Assembly: GCF_003403295.1 (NCBI RefSeq)
Contig: NZ_QUWV01000124.1
Location: 1-40,778 of the forward strand
Length of the DNA: 40,778 nucleotides
Origin: Komagataeibacter melaceti
Lineage (GTDB): Bacteria > Pseudomonadota > Alphaproteobacteria > Acetobacterales > Acetobacteraceae
Direction of reading: 5' to 3'
A model generated the notes under the pieces. That model saw only the letters and a list, made by a program, of their open reading frames with translations. It was not told where the DNA came from and did no database searches. Below are positions 16,952 through 21,835 of this stretch, one piece after another. Position 1 is the stretch's first letter. Each line of letters opens with the position of its first letter. Position numbers and translations under genes: made by a program.

Positions 16952-17926
16952 ATGAAGAAAATTTCTCCGCGCCCGACGTCGCGTAAAAACCTCGCCCTTG
17001 CCGCCGCCGCGGCCCTGACCATGCTGCCGGTGCTGGCCCACCCGCATGTGGCCGATGCCCGTGCGGGGGGTGGCTACTCCATGGGAAGCCGCGGTTCACG
17101 CACCTATAGCGCACCCGCGCCATCGCAGACCGCCCCCTATGGCGCGACGCCCTTCCAGCAGACAATGACGCCACGCCAGATGCCCGGCTACGGCGCACGT
17201 GCGCCCTTTGGCGCGGGGGCTGGCATGGCCATGGCGCGTCCCCGCCACCCGTTCATGAACGGGTTCATGGGCGGACTGGTTGGCGCTGGGCTGTTCGGCA
17301 TGCTGTTCGGGCATGGCATGTTCGGCCCCGGCATGGGGGGCAGCGGCTTCCTTGGCCTGCTGATCCAGCTTGCGCTGATCTTCTTTATCGTCCGCTGGGC
17401 CATCCGCCGCTTTGGCGGCATGGGCGGCAATGCCGGTGCGGCAGCCCCGCCGGGCAATCCGCTGGGGGGCATGGCCGGGGCTGGTGTGCCGCCACAGGGG
17501 CAGGCGCAGCCCGTGGGGGTCGCCATTACCGCAGCCGACTACCAGGCCTTCCAGCAGGCGCTGATCAATATCCAGACGGCATGGAGCCAGCAGGACGTAC
17601 GCGCCATGCAGCACATGGCCACGCCGGAAATGGTCTCCTATTTCAACAACCAGCTCAGTGCGCTGGCCAGCCGTGGCGCGCGTAATGTCGTATCCGACAT
17701 CCGCTTCGAACGTGGCGACCTGGTGGAAAGCTGGCGTGAAAACGGCTTTGATTACGCAACCGTCGCAATGCGGTATTCGATGATCGACATCACCACCGAC
17801 ATGACCGGGCGCGTGATTGAGGGCGATCCCTCCAACCGCACCACCGTAACCGAACTGTGGACATTCGTGCGTTCGGCCGGAACGGGAAGCTGGCTGCTCT
17901 CCGCCATCCAGCAGACACCCCGCTGA
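16952..17926 (+). CDS. Exported/membrane Tim44-like domain protein
   Basis: Protein of 324 residues. It has a basic N-terminus and a hydrophobic stretch (NLALAAAAALTMLPVLAH) that may be a signal peptide cleaved near ADARA. A Gly/Met/Pro-rich low-complexity region follows. Next comes a glycine-rich membrane region including GFLGLLIQLALIFFIVRWAIRR at about 129-150. A second Gly/Pro linker leads to a C-terminal Tim44-like domain from about residue 195 (DYQAFQQALINIQTAWSQQD, MVSYFNNQLSALASRG, TTVTELWTFVRSAGTGSWLL). The Tim44/NTF2-like fold is associated with protein translocation in mitochondria; the bacterial role is unknown. A strong intrinsic terminator follows, so it is probably transcribed alone. 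Confidence 0.82.
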   Translation: MKKISPRPTSRKNLALAAAAALTMLPVLAHPHVADARAGGGYSMGSRGSRTYSAPAPSQTAPYGATPFQQTMTPRQMPGYGARAPFGAGAGMAMARPRHPFMNGFMGGLVGAGLFGMLFGHGMFGPGMGGSGFLGLLIQLALIFFIVRWAIRRFGGMGGNAGAAAPPGNPLGGMAGAGVPPQGQAQPVGVAITAADYQAFQQALINIQTAWSQQDVRAMQHMATPEMVSYFNNQLSALASRGARNVVSDIRFERGDLVESWRENGFDYATVAMRYSMIDITTDMTGRVIEGDPSNRTTVTELWTFVRSAGTGSWLLSAIQQTPR

Positions 17927-18398: not shown

Positions 18399-19358
18399 CT
18401 AGTGGGCGATAAATGCATGGTCGGCCAGCAGGCCGCAGAACAGCAGGAACAGGTAAGCCAGCGAATAGCGGAAGGAATAGCGCGCCGGGCGGTCCCCGGT
18501 CAGGCTGACCCCGTTCGCATCCTGCTTGTCACGCAGCACCTGAATGGCGAAATAGATGAACCCCAGCCCCAGCACGGTGGCTACGATCGTATAAAGCCAG
18601 CCTGCCTGATGGGTGAAGGACGGCACCAGTGACACCGCCAGCAGCATGATCGTGTACCACAGGATCTGCCAGCGCGTATGCCGCGCGCCGCGCACCACCG
18701 GCAGCATGGGAATCCCCGCGCGCCCGTAATCCTTGCACGCATAAAGCGACAGCGACCAGAAATGCGGCGGTGTCCATAAAAAGATGATGCCGAACATCAC
18801 CACCGGCATGACCGCCATGGAACCCGTTGCCGCCGCCCAGCCGATCATGGGGGGGAACGCACCCGCCGCACCACCGATCACGATGTTCTGCGGTGTCGAA
18901 CGCTTCAGCCACATCGTGTAGATCACGGCATAGAAGAAGATGGAAAAGGCAAGGATACCCGCCGCCAGCGCGTTGGTCGCCAGCCACATCAGGATGACCG
19001 AGGCCACCGACAGGCCAATCCCGTAACCCAGCGCGGCTTCCGCCCCGATGCGGCCATCGGGGATGGGCCGGGTCACCGTGCGTTTCATGACCGCGTCAAT
19101 ATCGCGGTCATACCACATGTTGATCGCACCCGCAGCGCCTGAGGCCATGCAGATGCACAGGATGCTGACAGCCGCCACCAGCGGGTTGAGCGGCCCGGGC
19201 GCCATGGCCAGGCCAGCAGCCCCCGTAAAGACTACCAGCGAGATGACACGGGGCTTGAGCAGTAGCAGCCAGTCCCGCGCCAGCGTGCCGACACGGCTGG
19301 TGTCATAGGTAATGGCGGCATCCGGTGCCGCATCGGGCGTGGTTACGGTGCCGCTCAT
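18399..19358 (-). CDS. ctaB: Protoheme IX farnesyltransferase (heme O synthase)
   Basis: Integral-membrane prenyltransferase of 319 residues in the UbiA superfamily. It adds farnesyl to heme b to make heme O, needed by bo3/ba3/aa3 oxidases. The diphosphate-binding motif N80-MWY-D84-RDI-D88 is present, followed by KRTVTRPIPDGRI. The second motif lies in PPHFWSLSLYACKDYGRAGIPMLPVV. Eight to nine TM segments are visible. The ATG at 19358 has a GGAG ribosome binding site and lies 2 bases after the stop of the subunit-I-like gene. An in-frame start farther upstream would overlap that gene and is less likely. With no complete oxidase operon here, the product may serve a ubiquinol oxidase encoded elsewhere (inference). 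Confidence 0.95.
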   Translation of the reverse strand: MSGTVTTPDAAPDAAITYDTSRVGTLARDWLLLLKPRVISLVVFTGAAGLAMAPGPLNPLVAAVSILCICMASGAAGAINMWYDRDIDAVMKRTVTRPIPDGRIGAEAALGYGIGLSVASVILMWLATNALAAGILAFSIFFYAVIYTMWLKRSTPQNIVIGGAAGAFPPMIGWAAATGSMAVMPVVMFGIIFLWTPPHFWSLSLYACKDYGRAGIPMLPVVRGARHTRWQILWYTIMLLAVSLVPSFTHQAGWLYTIVATVLGLGFIYFAIQVLRDKQDANGVSLTGDRPARYSFRYSLAYLFLLFCGLLADHAFIAH

Positions 19359-19360
19359 GA

Positions 19361-20725
19361 TCAGGCGTCTCCGCGCATGGGGGAAGGTGTCTGCCATTCC
19401 GGCGTACGGGCGCCAGGGCCCCAGTAGTTATCGGGCAGCGATGCCGCCGGGCGCATGGCGGCCTGCACCACAATCGCGGTAAACACCACGACCGACAGCC
19501 CCATCAGCACCGCGCCGACCATACCCGGCACACCGTGGAAGGCCAGCAGCGACAGCGCGGTCCCCCCCACCGTCAGCCAGAAATGGACACGGCTGGCCAT
19601 GACCGGGGCGACATGGCCCACCATCTTGCCAATCCAGTAATAGAACCCGGAAAACAGCGCGAACATGGCGGCATACAGCGTCGCGGCATGCACATCGGCC
19701 ATGCCACCGGGCAGGAGCGACATGACGGAACCGAACACCAGCAGCGCCACGAACCCGGCCGCCCATTCCACCGGCACGGCGGCACGCATATGGCCCGCAC
19801 GCACCGTGCGCGCCCATGCCGCCAGCACGACCAGCACCGGCAGCACGATCAGCCCGAGCTGCACCAGCGCCACGGGGGCGACCATGCCCTCCAGCCCGCC
19901 ATGCAGCAGGTCATGCACCCAGACCGAGGCGCCACCGACCGACATGACCACCAGCGCGCCCAGCACCACGCGGGGCATGCGCAGCGGGGTTGCGGAAAAC
20001 GTCTCGATGATCTGGGACACGATCCCGATGGAGGGCAGCAACAGCAGCGCGATCTCCGGGCCGGTAAAGACATGCAGCAGCGCATCGACGGGCGAGAGCA
20101 TGTCACCCCCCGCCAGCAGGATGCGGGTCAGCCCGCCGGCCAGCACCGGCATGACCATGACCGCCATCATCGCGCTCAGCCCCTGCGCCCATACGAACAT
20201 GGGCATGTCACGCAGGCGCTGGCCAATCGGCCCCATGTTCAGCACGGTCGCGACCATCGTGATGGCCTGCAGCAGCATGCCCAGGCACCACCCCATCAGC
20301 GCCAGCACGGACAGCCAGGCAGGCACGACGGGTGAAAGACCGGCAAGCACGACGATGAAGCTGGCCGCCACAAGCCCCCAGCCCGCCAGCGCCATGCGCG
20401 GGAAAGCCAGCGCGCGGGCCCGCAGCAGCAGGGGCACGAACCAGTTGCCGAACCCGCCGGTCAGGGCAGGCAGCGCGCAGAAGAAGACCATAAGCATGCC
20501 ATGGCGGCGGCCGATGCGTTCGACAGCGCCAGCCACGTCCCCGCCAGCCCATGCGGACAGGAGAGCATGCGGCAGCAGACCGGCCTGAAGGCTTACCGCC
20601 AGCACGCCACCGGCCAGACCCGCCACAATCGCCATGACAAGATACAGCATGCCGATGCTCCGGTAGCTACAGAGTCCACCAGCCTGCCGTACGCCGTCCG
20701 CCCCGGACCGGGTGCCTGTGGGCAT
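19361..20725 (-). CDS. Cytochrome oxidase subunit I-like protein lacking the heme a3/CuB centre
   Basis: Membrane protein of 454 residues with about 10-12 hydrophobic segments, aligned by eye with CtaD. Family landmarks include IGMLYLVMAIVAGLAGG, GGFGNWFVPL, AFPRM, MPMFVWA, GIVSQIIETFS and SGFYYWIGKM. The two low-spin heme ligands are kept: His75 (RRHGMLMVFF) and His346 (ADVH). The oxygen site is lost. The HPEVY copper-ligand and tyrosine motif reads GPEIA (222-226), the HH pair reads HD (271-272), and the heme a3 His is Asp344. The D-channel Asp and K-channel Lys equivalents are also absent. It is shorter than catalytic CtaD (about 520-550). The ATG at 20725 has an AGGGAG ribosome binding site; earlier in-frame starts exist. 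No ctaC or ctaE is adjacent. Probably not an oxidase itself; function unknown. Confidence 0.8.
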   Translation of the reverse strand: MPTGTRSGADGVRQAGGLCSYRSIGMLYLVMAIVAGLAGGVLAVSLQAGLLPHALLSAWAGGDVAGAVERIGRRHGMLMVFFCALPALTGGFGNWFVPLLLRARALAFPRMALAGWGLVAASFIVVLAGLSPVVPAWLSVLALMGWCLGMLLQAITMVATVLNMGPIGQRLRDMPMFVWAQGLSAMMAVMVMPVLAGGLTRILLAGGDMLSPVDALLHVFTGPEIALLLLPSIGIVSQIIETFSATPLRMPRVVLGALVVMSVGGASVWVHDLLHGGLEGMVAPVALVQLGLIVLPVLVVLAAWARTVRAGHMRAAVPVEWAAGFVALLVFGSVMSLLPGGMADVHAATLYAAMFALFSGFYYWIGKMVGHVAPVMASRVHFWLTVGGTALSLLAFHGVPGMVGAVLMGLSVVVFTAIVVQAAMRPAASLPDNYWGPGARTPEWQTPSPMRGDA

Positions 20726-20898: not shown

Positions 20899-21612
20899 TC
20901 AGGCCACCATGGGGCTTGCGCAGGCCCCTGCCTCACGCTCCAGCGTGACAAGGGTGAACAGCCCGGCGGGCGGCACCGACTGCAGGGTCGCGCGCCGCAG
21001 GTCGGCAGGCGGCAGCAGGGATTCAATGGCGAAATCCGGATGCCAGCCCAGTGAATGGGACGCCCGCGCCATGCCGCGTTCCACCGCCAGCCGGACACCG
21101 CCCTGCGCCAGGAAATGGTTCACGAACAGGATATGGCCGCCCGGCTTGACCACGCGCTTGAGTTCGGCCAGCAGCGCACGCGGATGCGGCACGACGGAGG
21201 CAACGAACATCGCCACCGCAATATCAAACGTGCCATCGGCGAACTGCGTGGCCTCGGCATCCATTTCCAGCAGGTTGTCCACGTTGGACAGATGCATGCG
21301 GCGCACACGCTGGCGCGCACGCTCAAGCATGTCACCCGACAGGTCGATACCGGTAATATGCTTGTTCGCACGGTAATAAGGCAGGGCGAGGCCGGTGCCC
21401 ACGCCCACTTCCAGCACGCGCGTGCCGGGCAGGGAATTTACGGCCTCGACCGCGCGCTTGCGCCCGAAAGCGGAAATGCTGCCGAACAGCGCATCATACA
21501 CGCTGGCCCAGCGCCGGTACGCCGCCTTGACCGCCGCCGCGTCGAGCGCGGATTTGGGGGAAGGAATTTCCACAACCTTTTCGGATGCTTCATCATGCAG
21601 AACGTCGCTCAT
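20899..21612 (-). CDS. pmtA: Phosphatidylethanolamine N-methyltransferase (PmtA type)
   Basis: SAM-dependent class I methyltransferase of 237 residues that methylates phosphatidylethanolamine stepwise toward phosphatidylcholine at the inner membrane. SAM motif I is VLEVGVGTGL at 66-75, followed by ITGIDLSGDMLERAR. PmtA-specific stretches are YDALFGSISAFGRKRAVEA, NLLEMDAEA, VAMFVASVVPHPRALLAEL, FVNHF and LGWHPDF. These match the Rhodobacter-type PmtA better than generic UbiE-like enzymes. The ATG at 21612 gives the family N-terminus. A short upstream reading frame ends at this start as TGATG. A terminator follows. Confidence 0.88.
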   Translation of the reverse strand: MSDVLHDEASEKVVEIPSPKSALDAAAVKAAYRRWASVYDALFGSISAFGRKRAVEAVNSLPGTRVLEVGVGTGLALPYYRANKHITGIDLSGDMLERARQRVRRMHLSNVDNLLEMDAEATQFADGTFDIAVAMFVASVVPHPRALLAELKRVVKPGGHILFVNHFLAQGGVRLAVERGMARASHSLGWHPDFAIESLLPPADLRRATLQSVPPAGLFTLVTLEREAGACASPMVA

Positions 21613-21707
21613 CAGGCTGTTCCCATGCCCTGGCCATGAAAGAAGGCCTGTTGCGCCCCCTTCCGTGCTGCATCCGCCATGATCAAATCCATCCCGTTGT
21701 GCTGCAT
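21612..21707 (-). CDS. Candidate 31-residue upstream ORF coupled to pmtA
   Basis: A short minus-strand frame starts at ATG 21707 with a GGTGG-containing ribosome binding site about 8 bases upstream. It runs through MDLIMADAARKGAQQAFF and stops at a TGA whose last base is the first base of the pmtA ATG (TGATG). That arrangement suits translational coupling or a leader peptide. The peptide matches no family I recognise. Another in-frame ATG at 21692 would also work. The start/stop coupling is the main support. Confidence 0.3.
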   Translation of the reverse strand: MQHNGMDLIMADAARKGAQQAFFHGQGMGTA

Positions 21708-21835
21708 TACAATTCCACCTGACCTGTCCGCGCGCCGTTCCGGCCCACGTGAACGCATGCAATCCATATCAAATGTCAAGCCGCATGGCACGACAGTTGC
21801 GACTATCGCACCCATTCCGAATACCGTTTCCATTC

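Follow-up and report, generated by a model that had tools for sequence, protein, structure and literature searches.

A maintained COX1 homologue with the low-spin heme histidines and no oxygen-reducing centre beside the heme O synthase gene of Komagataeibacter and its relatives

Introduction

Why would bacteria keep a gene for subunit I of a cytochrome oxidase once the centre that reduces oxygen has gone from its product? This question is raised by an open reading frame (19361..20725, minus strand) in a stretch of 40,778 nucleotides from Komagataeibacter melaceti, the whole of which is called the window here. It encodes a COX1 homologue of 454 residues with 12 predicted transmembrane helices (pseudo-CtaD), in which the low-spin heme ligands are present and the oxygen-reducing centre is gone. 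The frame begins with ATG and runs for 454 codons with no internal stop; GGGAG stands ahead of the ATG, and 2 bases separate the stop codon from the ATG of ctaB (18399..19358, minus strand), which encodes a heme O synthase of 319 residues (TIGR01473, 324.1 bits against a cut-off of 210.3). An earlier reading of this DNA, made from the sequence only, had described an intact frame with its own ribosome binding site just before the heme O synthase gene, and both points hold. In-frame starts are also present upstream of the ATG, and the protein start MPT is found again in 11 of 19 other short relatives. The closest named relatives are 11 Komagataeibacter loci with 78-83% identity.

The gene is already known, and the Acetobacter ctaD was reportedly viewed by Matsutani in 2014 as a decaying relic. 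In the accessible part of PMC10715153, a "deranged COX1-like protein" encoded next to ctaB is said to have lost all cofactor-binding residues, and the available portion of PMC5158111 places a ctaD beside ctaB in A. pasteurianus (APT_01775); as far as these excerpts go, both concern the gene studied here, which adjoins ctaB in this bacterial group. According to a table note in PMC4596401 and to the accessible text of PMC5112900, respectively, A. pasteurianus contains a cytochrome c oxidase, and no genes for such an enzyme were detected in Bombella. Our literature search, mostly within papers outside subscription and the parts of them that could be opened, returned no report of a conserved low-spin histidine pair in these proteins and no phenotype for pseudo-ctaD. 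The words ctaB, cytochrome and heme do not occur in the accessible part of a G. oxydans screen (PMC12041372).

Results and Discussion

A COX1 fold without the oxygen-reducing centre

Pseudo-CtaD is a COX1 homologue beyond chance, with 124.8 bits against PF00115 (curated cut-off 34.8) and matches to COX1 chains in the PDB with E values down to 3.9e-39. Its score against the CtaD equivalog model TIGR02891 (150.8 bits) lies below the cut-off of 670.75, and a domain scan revealed no domain besides COX1. An AF2 model built from an alignment of the window protein with 40 relatives (pLDDT 82.4, pTM 0.86) shows 12 long helices, the second of which carries H75 and the tenth H346. In a Foldseek search with this model the COX1 subunits of Rhodobacter and Paracoccus came first, with a TM score over the query of about 0.8. 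The alignment to CtaD that had been made by eye agrees with PF00115, the PDB chains and 12 named CtaDs, and the structure prediction that had been proposed gives a COX1 fold with the histidine pair on helices 2 and 10. With CtaD/COX1 pseudo-CtaD shares homology, the 12-helix fold, the operon place before ctaB and the low-spin histidine pair, but it is shorter (454 residues versus approximately 530-550 for most of the functional CtaD frames listed) and has no subunit II or III gene beside it.

Ligand positions were assigned by alignment to the 12 named full-length CtaDs. H75 (codon 20501..20503, minus strand) and H346 (19688..19690, minus strand) fall on the two low-spin heme ligand positions, as the sequence-only reading had stated. 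The three CuB histidine positions are occupied by G222, H271 and D272, so that one His of three is present, and the active-site tyrosine position is A226. Thus, GPEIA (20048..20062, minus strand) stands in place of HPEVY, His-Asp (19910..19915, minus strand) in place of the CuB His-His pair, and D344 (19694..19696, minus strand) in place of the proximal His of heme a3, all of which had been noticed before. Among the 58 pseudo-CtaDs collected below, window included, the functional His is found at the CuB positions in 0/58, 22/58 and 3/58, the tyrosine in 0/58 and the heme a3 His in 2/58; in the three nearest genera the former His-His pair reads His-Asp in 29/29. The alignments place no CuB or heme a3 ligand elsewhere in the protein.

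The earlier claim that the proton channels have been lost stands in part. At the positions that we take to be the D-channel entrance Asp and the K-channel Lys, the window has A105 and V300 (Asp in 12/58, Lys in 0/58 pseudo-CtaDs), but what is presumably the gating Glu, the E of HPEVY, is still present as E224 in the window, in 29/58 relatives and in 29/29 of the nearest three genera. Pseudo-CtaD does not possess the set that marks a functional oxidase, namely three CuB histidines, the heme a3/o3 His, the HPEVY tyrosine and the D-entrance and K-channel residues. CyoB, subunit I of the bo3 oxidase and the presumed recipient of heme O, is a COX1-family protein of the same genome, but it has HPEVY, HH and HFH intact and is about 665 residues long.

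Distribution of pseudo-ctaD and its association with ctaB

Using the window CtaB as query, 62 genomes of the family were searched. Exactly one strong CtaB (at least 357 bits, other matches at most 38) was found in 57 of them, including the window genome (3.49 Mb). We took ctaB loci from 55 of these 57 (the window represents its own genome, and G031, where ctaB lies at a contig end, was left out) and added loci from five further genomes, giving 60. In 58/60 the gene immediately ahead of ctaB is a COX1-like frame. One of these (L194, genome G144) encodes an ordinary CtaD in which no ligand is missing, and was counted as functional, which leaves pseudo-ctaD in this place in 57/60 loci and, with the window, a set of 58 pseudo-CtaDs. 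In 44 more genomes from the same groups, one strong CtaB and a COX1-like frame upstream of it were present in 44/44. Holders outside Komagataeibacter, Novacetimonas and Gluconacetobacter are, by our assignment, presumably acetous bacteria.

In genome G077 ctaB has a different neighbourhood and no COX1-like frame directly upstream. In G001 (L196) the neighbourhood is the same, the methyltransferase gene and ctaB are adjacent, pseudo-ctaD is cleanly absent and CyoB is kept. This genome is a natural knockout of pseudo-ctaD in which ctaB and CyoB-type oxidases are present; thus, the gene is not indispensable.

The five remaining genomes (G210, G116, G066, G029 and G070, from four genera) had no CtaB match or matches up to 29 bits only, and the searches found in them neither a COX1 match of CyoB strength nor a pseudo-CtaD alignment match. 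Two had no COX1 match, and three had a single match each (139-145 bits), located in a frame 785-833 residues long, a size that suggests NOR-like proteins. By these searches CtaB, CyoB and pseudo-CtaD are jointly absent from these five genomes, which belong to the family as well and are small, at 1.7-2.1 Mb.

Descent from an ancestral ctaD locus

In the full-oxidase relative L092 the gene order is methyltransferase, ctaC, ctaD, ctaB, ctaG, ctaE and surf1, and in L108 thrC and an M16 peptidase gene come after. All 57 pseudo-ctaD loci have gshB and the methyltransferase gene upstream; in the window this PmtA-like methyltransferase, whose counterpart stands ahead of ctaC in L092, is encoded at 20899..21762 (minus strand). 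Downstream of ctaB, on the opposite strand, 53/57 loci have tim44, usually followed by pmbA, M16 and thrC. The window has the same arrangement, with the convergent gene for a Tim44-like protein at 16952..17926 (plus strand). Searches by tblastn with the L092 products detected no ctaC, ctaG, ctaE or surf1 in the 57 loci or the window, and found ctaC and ctaE in the G144 locus as well as in seven out of ten named functional loci (L092 among them). Given the shared neighbours and the missing partners, pseudo-ctaD is the ancestral ctaD whose partner genes have gone from the locus. In a tree of 38 pseudo-CtaDs (below 60% identity) and 13 functional CtaDs, the former occupy one side of a branch with an SH-aLRT of 100.

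This position opposite the CtaDs (CyoB was not in the tree) and the location at the ctaD locus led us to reject a CyoB or qNOR paralogue. A subunit of a working cytochrome c oxidase was likewise rejected, there being no ctaC or ctaE in the 57 loci or the window and an intact oxidase elsewhere in the genome. The latter locus (L205, contig C134 of the window genome, 2245-6311) is intact-looking and encodes a SCO1-like protein, COX2 with a cytochrome c domain, COX1 and COX3. Its COX1 has HPAVY, with Ala for the Glu of HPEVY, as well as HH and HFH, and it may be the "A2-type, subtype a-I" oxidase of PMC10715153.

We read the history of the locus as follows. In acetous bacteria an ancestral ctaCDBGE-surf1 locus lost the other subunit and copper-assembly genes, with ctaD and ctaB staying behind; CtaD then lost the oxygen-reducing centre, and the 12-helix scaffold with the two axial low-spin histidines remained. 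A 526-residue COX1-like frame beside ctaB in genome G071 (L188, 4469-6049 with ctaB turned to the plus strand) is near full length, has the low-spin His and lacks the active-site ligands; it may represent an early step in this loss.

Conservation of the low-spin histidine pair

Both H75 and H346 are His in 58/58 pseudo-CtaDs. Among the 44 loci added later, His stands at position 346 in 44/44 and at position 75 in 43/44; the exception (L238, from the 85%-complete genome G327) is a frameshift, with the first His present in another frame. Fifteen of the added loci were already in earlier sets (14 identical over the compared stretch to named loci, most of which were also used in the AF2 alignment and for dN/dS, plus L229), and the 29 wholly new ones have H346 in 29/29 and H75 in 28/29, the other being the frameshifted L238. 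With the L238 row dropped, both residues are His in 101/101 intact aligned sequences. This contradicts the statement, in the accessible part of PMC10715153, that all cofactor residues have been lost, and a relic without cofactor ligands does not fit these data.

The retention of this pair stands out against the general divergence of the protein. At 297 positions that are near-invariant in 13 functional CtaDs, the 58 pseudo-CtaDs show a mean retention of 0.285 (MAFFT alignment), and no more than four positions are kept in 58/58: H75, H346, W179 (20189..20191, minus strand) and W269 (19919..19921, minus strand), the last immediately ahead of the former CuB His pair. Both tryptophans are also invariant in 101/101. 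Columns 59 and 61 of the alignment seem invariant as well, perhaps because few sequences align there. A random draw of four of the 297 positions would include both heme ligands with a chance of 1.4e-4. The tree of 38 representatives (below 60% identity, the two His columns excluded) has a length of 41.8 changes per column, compared with 9.0 for CtaB of the same genomes, and with gamma-distributed rates (shape 1.79) the chance that a column stays unchanged over it is 3.3e-3. Synonymous CAT/CAC variation occurs at both His codons (25 named sequences and the window).

Retention also differs between the helices. It amounts to 0.41, 0.45 and 0.43 in TM1, TM2 and TM10 versus 0.30, 0.24 and 0.18 in TM6, TM7 and TM8; the low-spin ligands sit on helices 2 and 10, and helices 6, 7 and 8 are those that we take to line the lost centre and the K channel. 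Elsewhere it is 0.41 in helix 5, 0.37 in helix 9 and 0.47 in helix 12, the last from five positions only. Residues connected with heme A in COX have mostly gone. The GMPRRY stretch, whose arginines presumably bind the heme a propionates, is deleted in pseudo-CtaDs, and the Arg at window position 47, which we assume to lie near heme a, is kept in 6/58, so the quality of the heme pocket is uncertain.

The histidines might be kept not for heme but because, along with Gly, Pro and Trp residues, they help to pack the COX1 fold. Several Gly, Pro and Trp positions are indeed conserved almost as strongly as the pair, and the two invariant tryptophans equally so. However, His is unusual as a packing residue within a helix, and other COX1 His positions have been freely replaced (His at window positions 222, 272, 344 and 397 in 0/58, 3/58, 2/58 and 7/58), though H381 is kept in 48/58. 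We consider this explanation very improbable.

Purifying selection on pseudo-ctaD

Frames are intact in 101 of the 102 loci read, window included, the exception being the L238 frameshift; a sequencing or frameshift artefact was rejected on this ground. The dN/dS of orthologues, which the earlier reading had suggested measuring, was calculated by the Nei-Gojobori method and is well below 1. The median for pseudo-ctaD is 0.165 in Komagataeibacter (66 pairs, 11 sequences and the window; 0.075 for ctaB), 0.164 in Novacetimonas and G. entanii (6 pairs, four sequences; 0.055 for ctaB) and 0.306 in Gluconacetobacter (45 pairs; 0.115 for ctaB), and no value exceeds 0.417 in any of the 117 pairs. Pseudo-ctaD is under purifying selection that is looser than that on ctaB.

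These results bear directly on the view that ctaD lost its function by mutation and persists as a decaying relic only because ctaB lies behind it. The loss of the oxygen-chemistry ligands, the absence of the gene from G001, the frameshift in G327 and the fast evolution would all suit a relic. Neither broken frames nor near-neutral substitution, by which a pseudogene would be recognized, is the rule here: 101/102 frames are intact, median dN/dS values are 0.16-0.31, and the two ligand histidines have gone unsubstituted across 41.8 changes per column. A spacer role for ctaB expression cannot preserve particular residues. A relic is thus hardly credible. Frameshifts and neutral evolution, which would have spoken against a retained protein, are not borne out by the orthologues, and the suggestion that pseudo-CtaD is retained rather than decayed agrees with the intact frames, the low dN/dS and the His pair in every intact aligned relative. 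Pseudo-CtaD is a COX1 that is maintained, is no oxidase and has kept the ligand pair of one heme site, which may hold heme. Most likely it is a functioning protein that carries a heme and takes part in respiration, not the product of a dead gene.

A possible role in heme O supply

To our knowledge, little is established about how heme O is handed over to bo3 oxidases. The window ctaB is the only CtaB match in its genome, which has a cyo operon encoding subunits A, B, C and D; it is thus the only heme O source found there. Heme A synthase occurs in 29/62 genomes, and the window genome has a separate CtaA. Among the 53 genomes of this set with pseudo-CtaD, heme A synthase is present in 27 and absent in 26. 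Hence the His pair is kept also without heme A, and any heme bound in the latter 26 would be B or O. This differs from the Acetobacter description in the accessible text of PMC10715153, in which all cofactor residues are lost, since here the low-spin pair is present even in the absence of heme A synthase.

The low-spin heme is inserted first in oxidase assembly, and CtaA-CtaB complexes presumably channel heme O, according to the available part of PMC9145763. A subunit I that reaches this first stage only, and is encoded together with CtaB, would suit a heme docking or hand-over partner. In our best reading, pseudo-CtaD is a retained bis-His heme B/O membrane protein that acts with CtaB and supplies heme O to bo3, a proposal whose chances we regard as about even. 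It is favoured by the invariant ligand pair, the purifying selection, the steady place before ctaB, the single CtaB in most genomes, the joint absence with CyoB and CtaB from five genomes and the COX1 fold of the model. Pseudo-CtaD might dock heme B for CtaB or take heme O from it, and then help heme O to reach the apo form of CyoB in the bo3 (or ba3) ubiquinol oxidase. It would in effect be a subunit I arrested where cofactor insertion begins. The proposed role resembles that of CtaA/Cox15, which in the accessible parts of PMC8239418 and PMC9145763 is a membrane protein with a bis-His heme b, a partner of CtaB and an acceptor of heme O; CtaA/Cox15 belongs to a different Pfam family (PF02628), and the likeness would be one of role only, by analogy.

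Several observations speak against this proposal. The place beside ctaB goes back to the ancestral operon and is in itself no sign of a functional link; G001 has no pseudo-ctaD, G327 has a frameshift, the deleted GMPRRY stretch and the seldom kept Arg at position 47 leave the heme pocket in doubt, the joint absence comes from no more than five genomes of four genera, and pseudo-CtaD evolves faster than CtaB. Adjacency and the near one-to-one occurrence with CtaB would also be expected if pseudo-CtaD stabilized CtaB as a structural partner with no bound heme, a role suggested in print (in the accessible part of PMC10715153). That explanation leaves unaccounted for that two axial ligands are among the four positions of 297 that were never lost, and we consider it unlikely.

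If heme O delivery by a bis-His pseudo-CtaD is correct, the heme-copper family would include a subgroup that works without oxygen chemistry and has the electron-entry heme only, so that nature itself would have separated the two COX1 heme sites. This would also correct a printed statement on these proteins and point to a component not yet recognized in the supply of heme O to the bo3 oxidases of industrial vinegar and cellulose bacteria. More tentatively, and at somewhat less than even confidence, we propose that throughout this bacterial group an oxidase subunit I was turned into a single-heme assembly protein that is docked on CtaB and loads or passes heme O to the bo3 oxidase that took its place, while in three genera the old oxygen site was perhaps rebuilt to hold polar groups or a metal.

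Electron transfer is typically served by a low-spin heme held between two histidines within a bundle of membrane helices. Pseudo-CtaD could accordingly be a cytochrome b-like protein for electron transfer or for sensing of heme or oxygen, apart from heme delivery, and the two invariant tryptophans, with W269 bordering the former active site, would be in line with this. But no subunit II or III gene was detected in the 57 loci or the window, the window neighbours scanned include no other redox partner, COX1 is the sole domain, and the genomes lacking CyoB and CtaB yielded no pseudo-ctaD match. A redox or sensing function is therefore rather improbable, and we favour the heme-holding partner of CtaB.

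A separate observation concerns the old active site in Komagataeibacter, Novacetimonas and Gluconacetobacter, which carries a set of polar residues. E224, H271 and D272 are present in 29/29 of these sequences and D344 in 25/29, and together they perhaps form a new metal or proton site.
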